Shown: positions 14,875-44,453 of the stretch, piece after piece
Layout of the letters: each line of letters starts with the position of its first letter
Numbering within the stretch: the stretch's first letter is position 1
Origin: Effusibacillus dendaii
GTDB taxonomy: Bacteria; Bacillota; Bacilli; Tumebacillales; Effusibacillaceae
Length of the DNA: 64,000 nucleotides
Direction: 5' to 3'
Assembly (NCBI RefSeq): GCF_015097055.1
Contig: NZ_AP023366.1
Span: forward strand, 844,501 to 908,500
The notes under the pieces: model-generated
The model's database searches: none
What the model was told of the DNA's origin: nothing
The model's input: only the letters and a program-made list of their open reading frames with translations
Program-made: the position numbers and the translations under genes

Positions 14875-16764
14875 TTACGCTCTTTGCCGTTTCTTGGGCA
14901 TCAGACGTTTCACGTGTTCGACGATTCGCTCCGTTGTCACCCCAACCGACTCCAATAACTGTTTGACATTGCCGTGCTCAATAAACCGATCGGGCAGCCC
15001 GATTGGGAATACCTCAACGCCGGAAATCATGTTGACCGCAAAAAATTCCATAACTGCCGATCCCATGCCGCCCGCTACAGCCGCTTCTTCCACGGTGATG
15101 AAGCGGTAGCCGCGAATCGCCAGATCCATCAACAGTTCACTGTCAAGCGGTTTGACAAACCGCATGTTGACAACCATTGGAAAGACGCCTTCCTTTTCAA
15201 GCGCATCAGCCGCTTTCTCAGCCAGTTCCACCATAGGTCCCAAAGCAAGCAGCGCCACTTGCGAGGAACCTTCCCGCAGGATTTCCGCTTTTCCAAACGG
15301 GATCTCATGAAACTGTTCGTCCATCTGGACACCTTTCCCTTCGCCGCGCGGATAACGGACAGCGACCGGACCCGGTTGTTGCAAGGCCGTATACAACATA
15401 TGCTGCATCTCGTTTTCATCTTTCGGCATCATGATCGAGAGATTCGGAATCGCTCTCAAAAACGATATATCGAACGCCCCCTGATGCGTTTCGCCGTCCG
15501 CGCCAACCAAACCGGCACGGTCTACCGCGATCGTGACAGGCAGATTTTGAATACAGATATCATGAATCGTTTGATCATACGCCCGCTGCAGGAATGTGGA
15601 ATAGATGGAGAGAACCGGACGCATGCCCGCACAGGCCAGTCCAGCTGACATCGTGGCCGCGTGCTGTTCGGCGATCCCCACATCAAAAAAGCGGTCCGGA
15701 AACTTTTCCGCATACTCCAAAAGACCAGAACCGCTCGGCATAGCGGGAGTAATCGCAATCACTTTATCGTTTTGCTCCGCCAACCGGATCATTGTTTTGC
15801 CAAACACGGAACTGTAAGAAGGTGCAGACGAAACTGCTTTCGGCAATTCCCCTGTCTCAATGTTGAACGGGGAAACACCGTGCCATTTGTCATAGGAGCC
15901 TTCCGCCGCCGCATACCCTTTTCCTTTTTTTGTTACAACATGAACAAGAACGGGACCTTTCGTTTGTTTGGCCTGTTCCAGCCCTTGCAACAAAAGCGGC
16001 AGGTTGTGGCCGTCAATCGGCCCCATATACGTAAAACCGAGTTCCTCAAACAGCATGCCGGGAACCATCAGGTATTTCAACGAATCTTTAATCCGTTCCA
16101 ATCCCTTTGCCACTTTGGTGCCAAGCGAAGGCAACTTCTGCAGCAGGCTTACAATCTCCGCTTTTGCATTTTTGTAATGGGAGTCGTTACGGATTTTGGC
16201 CAAGTAATTGGACACAGCGCCGACATTGGGATCGATCGACATCTCATTGTCATTCAAGACGACAATCAGGTCGGTTCCCATATGGCCGACGTGGTTCATC
16301 GCTTCAAACGCCATACCGCCTGTCATGGCCCCGTCTCCGATAATCGCCACCACGTGGTGATCTTCTTTCTTCAGATCCCGCGCCAACGCATATCCAGTTG
16401 CCGCCGAAATGGATGTGGAAGAATGTCCGACATCGAACATGTCATGTTCACTTTCGGATCGTTTAGGAAAACCGGACAACCCTTTATACTTGCGCAGGGT
16501 GGGAAACTGATCCTTGCGTCCGGTCAAAATCTTATGCACATATGCCTGATGACCCACATCCCATATCAATTTGTCAATGGGAGAATCAAACACTTTATGC
16601 AAAGCAAGGGTCAACTCGACAACCCCCAAATTGGCGCCGAAATGACCCCCCGTAACGGATAAACTTTCGATCAGAAAACGCCTGATCTCTTCCGCCAGTT
16701 CCTCAAGTTGTCCCACGTTCAACTGCTTCAAATCAGCGGGGCTGTTGACGTTTTCCAACCGCAC
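14875..16764 (-). CDS. dxs: 1-deoxy-D-xylulose-5-phosphate synthase
   Basis: I choose GTG 16764, which has GAGGCGG six bases upstream and begins with the familiar LENVNSPADLK. An ATG at 16806 would add 14 residues without a Shine-Dalgarno. The 629-residue enzyme has the thiamine-diphosphate motif GDGAMTGG followed by LNDNEMSI (about 140-180), a transketolase central domain with GLAGLVGADGETHQG-type sequence, and a C-terminal transketolase domain. It condenses pyruvate and glyceraldehyde 3-phosphate in the first step of the MEP isoprenoid pathway. ispA lies a few genes upstream in the same direction. The start overlaps the 3' end of the oapA-like gene by 32 bases, indicating translational coupling. 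Confidence 0.97.
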   Translation of the reverse strand: MRLENVNSPADLKQLNVGQLEELAEEIRRFLIESLSVTGGHFGANLGVVELTLALHKVFDSPIDKLIWDVGHQAYVHKILTGRKDQFPTLRKYKGLSGFPKRSESEHDMFDVGHSSTSISAATGYALARDLKKEDHHVVAIIGDGAMTGGMAFEAMNHVGHMGTDLIVVLNDNEMSIDPNVGAVSNYLAKIRNDSHYKNAKAEIVSLLQKLPSLGTKVAKGLERIKDSLKYLMVPGMLFEELGFTYMGPIDGHNLPLLLQGLEQAKQTKGPVLVHVVTKKGKGYAAAEGSYDKWHGVSPFNIETGELPKAVSSAPSYSSVFGKTMIRLAEQNDKVIAITPAMPSGSGLLEYAEKFPDRFFDVGIAEQHAATMSAGLACAGMRPVLSIYSTFLQRAYDQTIHDICIQNLPVTIAVDRAGLVGADGETHQGAFDISFLRAIPNLSIMMPKDENEMQHMLYTALQQPGPVAVRYPRGEGKGVQMDEQFHEIPFGKAEILREGSSQVALLALGPMVELAEKAADALEKEGVFPMVVNMRFVKPLDSELLMDLAIRGYRFITVEEAAVAGGMGSAVMEFFAVNMISGVEVFPIGLPDRFIEHGNVKQLLESVGVTTERIVEHVKRLMPKKRQRA

Positions 16765-17383
16765 GCTTACCGCCTCGCTTTCGCGATTTTTTCTTATTAT
16801 TTCCATTGAAAAGCGAAATATGAAGATTCTGGTTCAGCCAGTAAAAAAACTTTCCTACCTGTAAGATAATCGGGTTCGCATAACGTATCGCGATAGATTT
16901 TCCGATTGCCTTGCTGCCTACCGTTAAGGCCGCTACAAGAGCGGTGGCTAACACCGTGAAAACCCCTGGCGATACATGGACCGCCCCGCTAGCGAGAATC
17001 CGCACGACTACGGCTGCTGTTGCCGCACCGCTCAACACGCCCGCAATATCGCCCACCACATCGTTGCAAAAATTGGAAAATTTTTCGGCATTGCGTACGA
17101 TTTGAATCGCCTGTTTTGCGCCATTCACCCGTTCTGCCGCCAGTGCATGAAACGGCGTTTCACTCGCGGCTGCCGCGGCCAGTCCCATTATATCAAAAAA
17201 TACGCCAATGAAAATAATTAGTATAACAAGACTAACCCCCACCCACCATTCCGCCTGATCCAGAATGATGGTGGAAGTGTTGAAAAATCCGGATAGAAAA
17301 AAGGTGACGACAGTGATTAACGCCGTCCACCGAAGCGTGTCACGCCACGCACCGCTCATGTATAGAGTAGCACTCCGTTTCAC
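16733..17383 (-). CDS. oapA: OapA-like OLE-RNA-associated membrane protein
   Basis: This protein is mostly membrane-embedded, with hydrophobic segments at about residues 20-35, 45-70, 110-140 and 150-165. A conserved core contains DIMGLAAAAASETPFHALAA and NFCNDVVGDIAGVLSGAA, and the C-terminus is very basic (KKKSRKRGGKR). The core resembles the DUF21/CNNM transmembrane domain and fits my recollection of B. halodurans OapA, the membrane partner of OLE RNA. It directly follows the predicted OLE RNA and precedes dxs, the same neighbourhood as in Bacillus halodurans. The start is uncertain: GTG 17383, ATG 17359 and GTG 17434 are in frame and none has a convincing Shine-Dalgarno; the last would overlap the RNA's 3' end. 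Confidence 0.8.
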   Translation of the reverse strand: MKRSATLYMSGAWRDTLRWTALITVVTFFLSGFFNTSTIILDQAEWWVGVSLVILIIFIGVFFDIMGLAAAAASETPFHALAAERVNGAKQAIQIVRNAEKFSNFCNDVVGDIAGVLSGAATAAVVVRILASGAVHVSPGVFTVLATALVAALTVGSKAIGKSIAIRYANPIILQVGKFFYWLNQNLHISLFNGNNKKKSRKRGGKRAVGKRQQPR

Positions 17384-17440
17384 AAACCGAATGTCAAAGC
17401 TGTATGTAAGGGTGGCAACTTTCCGAGTAAACACTGTGGC

Positions 17441-18036
17441 TTAGGTCGAGTAGGTTTTCCCAAACAAACACCTTCACGTCGCCGTGGAGGCGGTTTCCCT
17501 TTACGTTTGTTTCGATCGTGTCACCAAAGATCGGACTCGATTACCACTTAGTCCACACTACAATCCTCGAAAAGTCACGTGCGATACGACAGTCTAGGAG
17601 ATTTCCTCAACAACGCCCACACATCTCCCTAGCCTCTTTTGCAACATGGATTTCATGCCTCACCGACATTCTGTTTTTGGCCATAAAACGGGATGTCTGA
17701 ATCCTGCAATCCCTCCATGCCACGCAAGGCAGGCTACGCTGCACACAAGTGTCGTGTCATCCAAGATTCCATTTTCACTCGCCATGCAGGTTCATACCCT
17801 ATGTTGTAATCATTCACACGCTGGTGGTTGACCACAATCATAGGCCTCCGCGGAAGTAGGGTCATCGCCCGCATGCCATTGCAGATCGCCCTACAACCTT
17901 AACTCCCAGTACCAACCCAAGGCTGGGCGCCTCAAGCCAGCACAAGGAACTTCATCGATGTGCCCTTTGACGGATTTTTAGGCCCGCCTTCAGGAGAGGG
18001 GGGTTGACTAGAATACTGCACCACCCGCTCGATTTG
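17441..18036 (-). ncRNA. OLE RNA (ornate, large, extremophilic), predicted
   Basis: About 600 bases hold no credible gene but lie between the DUF421 gene and oapA in the ispA-to-dxs interval, which is the published genomic position of OLE RNA. The minus strand has the expected features: a strong extended -10 promoter upstream, many helices, and a 3' domain in which AAACAAAC (about 17512) pairs with GUUUGUUU, enclosing a small CCGCC/GGCG hairpin. Stretches such as GAAUGAUUACAACAUAGGG and CAGCGUAGCCUGCCUUG agree with my memory of the family consensus, but I cannot run a covariance search. In B. halodurans OLE binds OapA at the membrane and helps tolerance of alcohol, cold and other stresses. 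Ends are approximate. Confidence 0.85.
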
Positions 18037-18041
18037 TTCTC

Positions 18042-18072
18042 ATTATACCATAGAACGCGGGCGGCAACCAAA
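18042..18072 (-). promoter_or_regulatory. Promoter of the OLE RNA
   Basis: On the minus strand an extended -10 element TGGTATAAT (hexamer at 18042-18047) is preceded at 18 bases by TTGGTT as a -35. Transcription would begin near 18035, at the start of the conserved RNA and about 100 bases after the DUF421 stop, so OLE need not depend on upstream operon transcription. Confidence 0.7.
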
Positions 18073-18151: not shown

Positions 18152-18853
18152 TTATTGTTTTTTGATCGGATTTGTACCATCGTTCCAATCCACCGTTAAA
18201 GTTCCGTCCGATTCCCATTGGACAAGTGTAAGTTTCCGCAAATCCTGCGGTTTGATATTTTGTTTTTCCAACTGTGCAAGCACCCATTGCCTGCTTTTAT
18301 TCAGATAGATGAGATTGACATCCACCCAATGCCCGTCCAGAATTAGCGGAACGGGAAGCGACTGGGGAGTGGCCTCTATATTCAGATCTTTAGGTGTAAC
18401 AGGCGTTTGATCCGGTTTCGGAATGACAGATATGTCTCCCACATCCTCCATAATGGCAAACTCCACATCGGCCAGCGACAAGTATCCTTTCAACCGTAAA
18501 TGGCCCAGCAGTTCAGGCACTGTCATGCGCACTTGCCGCAGTCCCGGTTCGTTTATATTTCCGCGGTTCACGAGAACAGTCGGTTTTATATGGACAAGTT
18601 GACGAAATTTGTTGTTCAGCATCAGAAAGGAAGCGACAAGGTAGATCGCGACCAGAAAACCGCCCGTCAGGATCACTTCCCAAGTGTTTCTTCCGTCCGA
18701 CATGTTTGACGCAAACATCGATCCCAATAAAAATACGACAATCAGGTCAAACGTATTCATCTGTGCGACGGCACGCTTACCCATAATTCTCATAAAGCAA
18801 TAAACGGAAATAAAAACAGCCAATGTTTCGAGAAACCAAACAGCATATTTCAC
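18152..18853 (-). CDS. DUF421 membrane protein (YetF family)
   Basis: A GTG at 18853 with GGGGTGG seven bases upstream gives 233 residues; a TTG two codons earlier lies too close to the Shine-Dalgarno. Three N-terminal membrane segments (about 3-22, 32-50, 58-78) contain the family signature RIMGKRAVAQMNTFDLIV. They are followed by two cytoplasmic DUF421 subdomains with V-L-V-N-R-G and E-F-A-I-M-E-D type motifs. Homologues in Bacillus (YetF, YkjA, YdfS, YrbG) are common in spore formers, some associated with spore germination or membranes. Their biochemical role is not known. It stands between ispA and the OLE RNA on the same strand. Confidence 0.88.
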   Translation of the reverse strand: MKYAVWFLETLAVFISVYCFMRIMGKRAVAQMNTFDLIVVFLLGSMFASNMSDGRNTWEVILTGGFLVAIYLVASFLMLNNKFRQLVHIKPTVLVNRGNINEPGLRQVRMTVPELLGHLRLKGYLSLADVEFAIMEDVGDISVIPKPDQTPVTPKDLNIEATPQSLPVPLILDGHWVDVNLIYLNKSRQWVLAQLEKQNIKPQDLRKLTLVQWESDGTLTVDWNDGTNPIKKQ

Positions 18854-18912
18854 GATCAAACCACCCCTACTGGTTCAGTAAGGGTAGTATTTGCGTCTGC
18901 GCCCCATTGTAG

Positions 18913-19833
18913 TCAATTCACCCTGGTGAGCAAATAATTTGCAATCTCCCGCAGTACGGTCGTGTCGTGCGGCAGATGGTTCAGGGCGGACAGCGCTTGT
19001 TGCGTAGTTTCGTTCAGTTTTTTATGAGACTCTTCCAATCCGAACAGGCTTGGATAGGTCAGCTTGCCATGAGCCTCATCCGCACCTGTTGATTTTCCCA
19101 GTTGATCCGCATTTCCCTCCACATCCAGCAAATCGTCCTGAATCTGGAAAGCAAGTCCCAAATTCATCGCATACAAGGTTAAATGGAGGATCTCCTGTTC
19201 GTTTGCCCCTGCAAAAACGGCCCCCATCTGAACGGCCGCCCTCAGCAAATCGCCTGTTTTATGCCTGTGAATAAACTCCAGCGTCTGCGGATCCGGCTGC
19301 TTTCCTTCCGCCTGTATGTCGGCCATCTGTCCTCCGATCATGCCCGCATAACCACTTGCGTCCGACAAAATGCGTATCAATTGCAGCAACTCTTTTTCCC
19401 GTTGCGGCATCTCCACTTGTGACAAAACCTGAAACGCCAAAGTCAGCAACGCATCGCCAGCCAAAACGGCGACTGCTTCCCCATAAACTTTGTGGTTGGT
19501 GGGCTTGCCCCGCCGGAAGTCGTCATCATCCATGGCGGGCAGATCGTCATGGATTAACGAATACGTATGTATCAATTCCAGGGAACAGGCAACCGGCAGG
19601 GCTGCCTGTCGATTGCCCCCTAATGTTTCCACCGTCGCAAGCGCCAAGATCGGTCGAATTCGCTTTCCTCCCGCGAACAGGCTGTACCGCATCGATTCAA
19701 TCAGCAAACCGGTCGATTCTAAACCGGCGTGCCTCGAAAACATCCGCTCCTTGCCGCTCGGCAAAAGCTTATCCATTGCCTGTTCCACTTCGCAGGCGGC
19801 TTCTTTCAAATAATCCTCAATTACAAACGACAT
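18913..19833 (-). CDS. ispA: Farnesyl diphosphate synthase
   Basis: The 306-residue prenyltransferase contains both aspartate-rich motifs: LIHDDLPAMDDDDFRRG (first, about 92-108) and FQIQDDLLD (second, about 232-240), with GGKRIRP for diphosphate binding. The two residues before the first motif and its extra Asp are typical of bacterial farnesyl-diphosphate synthases. It makes C15 diphosphate from IPP and DMAPP for undecaprenyl phosphate, menaquinone and hopanoids. The gene begins two bases after the xseB stop, so the three genes xseA-xseB-ispA form one translational unit. Confidence 0.96.
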   Translation of the reverse strand: MSFVIEDYLKEAACEVEQAMDKLLPSGKERMFSRHAGLESTGLLIESMRYSLFAGGKRIRPILALATVETLGGNRQAALPVACSLELIHTYSLIHDDLPAMDDDDFRRGKPTNHKVYGEAVAVLAGDALLTLAFQVLSQVEMPQREKELLQLIRILSDASGYAGMIGGQMADIQAEGKQPDPQTLEFIHRHKTGDLLRAAVQMGAVFAGANEQEILHLTLYAMNLGLAFQIQDDLLDVEGNADQLGKSTGADEAHGKLTYPSLFGLEESHKKLNETTQQALSALNHLPHDTTVLREIANYLLTRVN

Positions 19834-23508: not shown

Positions 23509-24513
23509 CTACCTATTCGACAACAAAGTTTGTCGAATCGACAATCCAATTCGCGCCACGCCAAACGCATTATCTGTAGAATAACGAGGTTCTGCAAAAA
23601 ACAGCCGGGCTTTGACAGCCGGGTGTTCCAAACGGCGCTGCAGCCGCTTGCGAATATATAGATTTGCCGCTACGCCTCCGACGATCAAAACGTTTTGCAG
23701 GTTTGTTTCTTCCATCGCATTCCGAATTACCTTCTCCAATCCTTTTGCGATGCACGCTTCCACCGCACGGGCAACCGCCGCTTTGTCAGCCCCCGCCGCA
23801 ATCAACCGGTCGGCTGCCGTTTCCGGACCGGCGAACGACCAATTAAATCGTTCGATAACAGGAGACGGGAGACGGACGGAAGAGTTTTCGTGCGCGAAGG
23901 AGGCTAATTTTTCCAAATGAGGACCCGCAGGGAACGGCAGCCCCAAGGCCACGCCTATCCGATCAACGAACTGGCCCGCATGCAGATCGACAGAACTTCC
24001 CATCGGCTCAATTTGATATCCGACCGGGTGGCGTTTTACCCGCAACAAATCGCTGGTGCCACCCGACAGATGAATCGCCAAAAATTCCGGACTGTCGGCA
24101 AGCGGAGCCGAACCGCTCGAATCGGTTGCTTCACCGGCCGCACCATCGAAAACGGTTGCTTCACCGGCCGCTATATGCCCTTCCTGATGGCTCGTTTCGT
24201 AGAAGGGGATTTGCAGCGCAGCGGAGATGCTTTTTGCCAGACCTTCCCCTGCTAAAAAAACAGGCATATACGACCCTTCTGCCGGTCGCGGTCGAGTAGA
24301 AACACAAACGGCCTGAAGCTCTCGCAAATTGCCGATTTTCTCCATGAGCAGGGGCAGATTTTTGACGTGCTGAAACAACGCCTCCGACTGCTGCAGTCCC
24401 CGAGCTCCCCTATCTACCTGCAACAGTTGCCGCTCCTCTCTTACAATTGCGCCGTTTGCGTTTACCAAACAAAGTGAAGTCGTGTAATTGCTGGTATCGA
24501 TTCCGAGAATCAT
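23509..24513 (-). CDS. TsaD/Kae1-like paralogue
   Basis: The 334-residue protein has the actin-like ATPase fold of TsaD/Kae1: MILGIDTSNYTTSLCLV at the N-terminus, a shortened metal-binding block SHQEGH, IHLSGGTSDLL, and the C-terminal VLIVGGVAANLYIRKRL. It is diverged from authentic TsaD, which would be expected at a separate locus with TsaB and TsaE and makes the t6A37 tRNA modification. Its position immediately after nusB (its ATG overlaps the nusB stop by four bases) recurs in clostridia and Alicyclobacillaceae. A small internal duplication around residues 116-130 repeats G-E-A-T. Whether it still has carbamoyltransferase activity is unclear. Confidence 0.8.
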   Translation of the reverse strand: MILGIDTSNYTTSLCLVNANGAIVREERQLLQVDRGARGLQQSEALFQHVKNLPLLMEKIGNLRELQAVCVSTRPRPAEGSYMPVFLAGEGLAKSISAALQIPFYETSHQEGHIAAGEATVFDGAAGEATDSSGSAPLADSPEFLAIHLSGGTSDLLRVKRHPVGYQIEPMGSSVDLHAGQFVDRIGVALGLPFPAGPHLEKLASFAHENSSVRLPSPVIERFNWSFAGPETAADRLIAAGADKAAVARAVEACIAKGLEKVIRNAMEETNLQNVLIVGGVAANLYIRKRLQRRLEHPAVKARLFFAEPRYSTDNAFGVARIGLSIRQTLLSNR

Positions 24514-43920: not shown

Positions 43921-44376
43921 CCAAAAGAAAAAGACACACAAATGGGAAAAAATCCCTGTGTGTCTGTCTCTGTCTTTTTACCTGAGAGTCCCCAACCACG
44001 AATACAAATTAGAAACTGCGGATTTCTTTGTTGCGACGTCATTCCGATGCGCTGGACACGATGTCCGAGTGTCGACCATGTCACAGGACGTGACTGGGAT
44101 GGTCGACCTCACATAGGTTTCCACTATGCTCCGCTTCTCATTTCCGCCGCGCCTCGAACTCCTTGTTTCTAATTTGTCTTCTCGAAGCATGCTTTATGAC
44201 AAATCCATAAAACTATGAATCGTGGGTGTTGCCCCTTGGGTGGCTTATGTATGAAAGCTCTCTCCAGAGGTGCGTCCCGAATACGGTGACCTTTGCCTGA
44301 GAGATTCGTGAACGGAATGCAGGACACCCCTTTCACTTGCTCCTACGGCGACGCCATAACGCGTTCTCTCCCGTAT
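43921..44376 (-). promoter_or_regulatory. Tandem glycine riboswitch with terminator
   Basis: Two glycine aptamers lie in tandem upstream of gcvT. Aptamer 1 (about 44256-44374) shows the conserved CGGGAGAG opening, GGAGCAA, CUCUCAGGCAAAGG and GGGACGC...CUCUGGAGAGAG. Aptamer 2 (about 43966-44255) has GGGGCAACACCC and the end GGGGACUCUCAGGUAAAAAGACAGAGA. They are followed by an intrinsic terminator, with stem AGACACACA / TGTGTGTCT (43932-43940 with 43957-43965) and TTTTTCTTTT on the minus strand. Glycine binding is expected to free gcvT from termination. Aptamer 2 is unusual: about 235 bases separate its two conserved halves against about 32 in aptamer 1. Confidence 0.93.
44004..44177 (-). repeat. 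Closing 13-bp inverted repeat of the aptamer-2 insertion
   Basis: ACAAATTAGAAAC (44004-44016) and its exact complement (44165-44177) enclose 148 bases inside the P3 region of the second glycine aptamer. Within them lie a 9-bp palindromic stem with an inner 5-bp stem (GTCGACCAT / ATGGTCGAC, about 44071-44107), a GGACA-tcg-TGTCC hairpin (44053-44065) and a CATAG/CTATG hairpin (44111-44127). A further small hairpin (TTATG/CATAA) flanks the repeat. The whole segment is a compact folded module. Confidence 0.8.
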
Positions 44377-44453
44377 CAATCATCCGCAGTATAAAATTGT
44401 AAAATTAACACATTCTAAACCAGCAACCTGATTATACCACATGAGGTGAACCC

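Follow-up and report, generated by a model that had tools for sequence, protein, structure and literature searches.

OLE is a large membrane-associated bacterial RNA, and few bacterial RNAs whose biochemical action is not known are as elaborate. The biology of the OLE complex has been described (PMC11332333, PMC9723947, PMC12265935, PMC12286853) and the full-length RNA of Halalkalibacterium halodurans provides the closest point of comparison. OLE variants 1 and 2 from the TANB77 and RF39 clades belong to the same RNA class and have short or missing P7, P8 and P9 elements (PMC11332333). Here we analyze an OLE locus in a 64,000-nucleotide stretch of the Effusibacillus dendaii genome (contig NZ_AP023366.1, positions 844,501 to 908,500), referred to as the window. 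The window RNA shares with its H. halodurans counterpart the whole model, the conserved loops, the ispA-ole-oapA-dxs position, a predicted promoter of its own and genes for OapA, OapB and OapC. It differs in the presence of a DUF421/YetF gene between ispA and ole, and the genome differs in encoding two MpfA-type transporters. In contrast to variants 1 and 2, the window RNA retains P7, P8, P9 and P13 and consequently represents the full-length type, with a P8 about 22 nt longer than that of the Rfam model. OLE is a known and catalogued class, the window copy does not constitute a new family and its novelty is low. The original prediction overstated the value of another natural instance, given that a GTDB survey lists 2,822 OLE hits in Bacillota (PMC11332333).

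The OLE RNA, its promoter and its neighborhood

Searching the ole interval against Rfam returned the OLE family RF01071 as the single strong match, covering model positions 1-616 and thus the full length of the 616-position model. The score of 522.7 bits compares with a gathering score of 50 bits and falls inside the range of 451-578 bits found for intact OLE members. This search had been named as the check on the original prediction and it bears the prediction out; the feature proposed at 17441-18072 is real while its coordinates shift slightly (Table 1). The gap of about 600 bases without a credible gene was also correctly recognized, with 792 nt separating the neighboring genes (18152 to 17359) and no open reading frame longer than 61 amino acids inside the RNA on either strand. 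Standard pairs make up 145 of the 158 pairs of the Rfam structure, compared with 62 ± 6 in shuffled sequences (maximum 83, n = 1000). When 81 OLE loci were aligned in the same orientation, 115 pairs had two-sided changes and 88.8% of cells were paired, values that dropped to 61-75 pairs and 40-47% when partners are slid by 1-3 positions. Within the genus alone, represented by four sequences of which the other three share 80-83% identity with the window, 27 pairs have changed on both sides versus 3-7 when slid. Thermodynamic folding of the window RNA is modestly unusual (z -2.3), so that folding energy by itself would not have decided its identity. At the level of sequence and conserved pairing, a complete and structurally intact OLE RNA beside oapA, which encodes its membrane protein partner, is confirmed.

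Table 1. Features of the OLE locus in window coordinates.
Feature	Position	Strand	Evidence or remark
dxs, downstream neighbor	14875..16806	-	
oapA, 208 aa membrane protein with DxxxD (DVVGD) and basic C-terminal tail	16733..17359	-	CNNM 5.1e-05; alignment
OLE RNA (RF01071), full-length type	17396..18040	-	522.7 bits, 145/158 standard pairs, covariation over 81 loci
P9 loop palindrome UGGCCA, self-kissing dimer contact	17678..17683	-	GGCC core in most full-P9 loci
P6.1 loop (AAUGGC), pairs with P5.1 loop	17875..17880	-	GGC in 81/81 loci
P5.1 loop (CGCCCA), kissing-loop dimer contact	17924..17929	-	GCCCA in 79/81 loci
Palindrome CAUCGAUG near P4a	17953..17960	-	In 76/81 OLE loci
P4 A-rich loop (CUAAAAAU)	17974..17981	-	Kept in 81/81 loci; RNA dimer contact in cryo-EM models (PMC12265935)
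Extended -10 promoter TGGTATAAT of ole	18042..18050	-	TGNTANNNT here in 65/74 loci
DUF421/YetF-like membrane protein between ispA and ole	18152..18859	-	PF04239 2.3e-32
ispA (farnesyl diphosphate synthase)	18913..19833	-	Upstream neighbor of ole, 81/81 loci

The loops that form dimer contacts in cryo-EM structures (PMC12265935, PMC12286853), namely P4, P5.1/P6.1 and P9, are all present in the window RNA at the sequence level. Most loci whose P9 is full carry its GGCC core, which is missing in about 20 loci. Two palindromic OapA sites have been described for OLE (PMC12265935) and the CAUCGAUG palindrome fits the description of one of them, making it a candidate OapA site.

As originally predicted, ole appears to be served by its own extended -10 promoter. 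The TGGTATAAT element gives a predicted start near 18035. Across the class, the extended -10 (TGNTANNNT) is located directly 5' of a conserved TGG(T/C)GCAGTA in 65 of 74 loci compared with 0-3 of 74 at shifted control positions. A generic -35/-10 scan missed the ole promoter, which is explained by its weak -35. An ole promoter is already known in H. halodurans (PMC9723947) and class-wide promoter conservation at a fixed place, which we did not find stated in the literature searched, extends that finding. In four loci of one genus (L053, L054, L055 and L061; family f11, genus g12), the -10 box lies 35-36 nt before the conserved start, elsewhere mostly 14-21 nt. These loci share a conserved GUCCGACGAAA-containing insert 5' of ole that could form a hairpin; the insert, located between promoter and ole, has no Rfam match.

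The gene order in the window is nusB-TsaD-like-TrxB-like-folD-xseA-xseB-ispA-DUF421-[gap]-oapA-dxs-tlyA-nadK-argR-recN, in agreement with the neighborhood described in the original prediction. DUF421 intervenes between ispA and ole in only two of the 81 loci, the window and one congener. Further copies of the family are found elsewhere in the genome and related members elsewhere in congeners. The insertion is therefore read as a lineage-specific rearrangement; DUF421 is an unlikely OLE partner and its gene probably lies outside the OLE unit. No terminator was found between ole and oapA on their strand, and in at least eight loci oapA is followed by tlyA without dxs. Two other features of the window can be recorded here. 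The TsaD/Kae1-like paralogue at 23509-24513 scores well under the TsaD equivalog cut-off and has a relative near nusB in 56 of 81 OLE loci. An ordinary glycine riboswitch (RF00504, 53.7 bits) is found at 44274-44383, 5' of apparent glycine-cleavage genes (gcvT, gcvPA).

OapA and the other partner genes

The protein encoded on the downstream side of ole carries a DVVGD motif whose D100 and D104 are invariant in both alignments. It matches the CNNM profile (PF01595) at 5.1e-05, under the Pfam cut-off, and a weak CNNM match of OapA has been published (PMC11332333). The four best PDB matches of a predicted OapA model (pLDDT 77) are all to archaeal CNNM MtCorB with probabilities of 0.99-1.00 and E-values of 0.013-0.18. 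By E-value this structural match is weak (best 0.013) and was counted against our main explanation. The model nonetheless supports a helical membrane protein with a CNNM-like fold. While this predicted fold is shared with CNNM-type proteins, window OapA differs from them in being 208 amino acids long, in having no CBS or CorC domain and in carrying DxxxD. The OapA call of the original prediction (16733-17383) stands in its identity, based on DxxxD, the weak CNNM match, the predicted resemblance to the CNNM fold and the joint occurrence with OLE (86 of 86 genomes). Its start does not: ATG 17359 is more likely than GTG 17383 because congeneric proteins start at the aligned position and a GGAG precedes it.

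OLE is found in all four genomes of the genus and in none of ten others of the order. Among 399 sampled genomes of the class, 85 contain OLE above threshold, and intact OapA is encoded in exactly these 85 and in G262, in which OLE is cut by a contig end with its 3' 89 nt present. Thus 86 of 399 genomes contain both OLE and OapA, and in the remaining 313 neither is present in intact form. The co-occurrence has no true exception in the 399 genomes, the only partial cases being decayed, and a published phylogenetic profile agrees (PMC11332333). In a separate collection, 80 of 80 named OapA loci carry OLE motifs or an Rfam match. As for the decayed cases, G123 contains an OapA pseudogene with five stops; G115, a genome without OapA, contains an OLE relic (L146:2599-2672) with about 50 nt of the 5' end left.

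Seven loci lack oapA next to ole, and in all seven genomes a divergent OapA is encoded at another site (E 1e-37 to 1e-47; L136-L142 in genomes G032, G152, G025, G142, G171, G046 and G181). The unlinked proteins keep DxxxD, and a Lys/Arg-rich N-terminus replaces the C-terminal basic tail. The OLE RNAs of the seven genomes retain the P4a palindrome and the dimer loops. We lean towards the reading that the OLE-OapA partnership outlasts physical separation in 7 of 85 OLE-bearing Bacilli, which have a divergent, N-tailed OapA elsewhere and OLE still beside ispA. If so, the OLE-OapA pair would work in trans and the basic tail would be a movable element, possibly contacting RNA. Several unlinked oapA copies are located near a CBS-domain gene and other common neighbors.

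The genome also encodes the other known partners. OapB, a protein of 109 amino acids encoded between map and infA, matches the solved H. halodurans OapB (PDB 7k9b) with an E-value of 1.3e-24; the PF00467 profile failed to detect it and it was located by gene position and the 7k9b match. An OapC/YbxF orthologue is encoded between rpoC and rpsL; the genome has a second, separate L7Ae-family protein in a YlxR-YlxQ context. The widespread protein bS21 is present as well. Two full MpfA-type (CNNM-CBS-CorC) genes were identified (L143 and L144; G000:C1:1801951-1802532 and 2132627-2133211). In OLE-bearing species the usual number is zero or one, a trend not followed by the window genome. Since this anticorrelation is statistical (PMC11332333), two copies are an exception worth noting that neither contradicts nor excludes OLE.

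A probable functional OLE ribonucleoprotein and alternative explanations

Very probably, the window contains a functional OLE RNA gene whose product forms an OLE ribonucleoprotein as in H. halodurans. This explanation rests on the Rfam match, covariation, the in-place promoter, OLE/OapA co-occurrence, the OapB, OapC and bS21 genes and the kept dimer loops. Judged from the genome itself, family membership, an intact structure, a conserved promoter and genes for OapA and the other partners are all in place. Transcription, dimerization and assembly, membrane location and a stress function would follow by analogy to other species. The extended -10 promoter, together with read-through from the ispA operon, would yield an RNA of roughly 630 nt starting near 18035 that would adopt the conserved OLE structure and dimerize via the P4, P5.1/P6.1 and P9 loops. 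OapA, produced from the next gene, would anchor the RNA at the membrane, and OapB, OapC and probably bS21 would join to form a stress- and Mg2+-related ribonucleoprotein.

Three other explanations were considered. The location of ole directly 5' of oapA, with no intervening terminator found on that strand, could indicate a structured leader that acts mainly in cis to control oapA-dxs expression, and the position just after ispA is kept in all 81 loci, including those whose oapA now lies elsewhere. We consider such a leader improbable: both the retention of OapA elsewhere in the seven unlinked genomes and the at least eight loci running from oapA to tlyA without dxs, which leave no fixed downstream target, argue against a purely cis role, and known OLE is an abundant separate RNA of about 630 nt that binds OapA, OapB and OapC (PMC9723947). 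Slightly less probable still is a decaying, inactive but recognizable OLE copy whose role has passed to the two MpfA-type transporters. The genome does encode both transporters in full and degraded copies exist in relatives (the G115 relic and the G123 pseudogene), but the window RNA scores within the intact-member range, the compensatory changes within the genus indicate continuing selection on pairing, and both an open, well-conserved OapA frame and an intact promoter are retained. A protein gene that escaped recognition or an intergenic region that folds by chance, as the modestly unusual single-sequence folding energy might have suggested, has a negligible probability; it is refuted by the Rfam match, and the covariation and the lack of any open reading frame longer than 61 amino acids also speak against it.

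A point against the preferred explanation of a functional OLE ribonucleoprotein is that the two MpfA-type genes may mean a weaker need for the OLE complex in Mg2+ homeostasis here. By itself, the window OLE adds a single copy to a class already known from thousands of genomes. Minor new points are the DUF421/YetF gene between ispA and ole, the occurrence of two MpfA-type genes with OLE and the unlinked divergent oapA in seven relatives. Specialists might make use of the promoter conservation across the class and of the group of divergent, unlinked OapA proteins, and a genome that combines an intact OLE with every known partner gene and a pair of MpfA-type transporters offers a setting for testing functional overlap between MpfA and the OLE complex.
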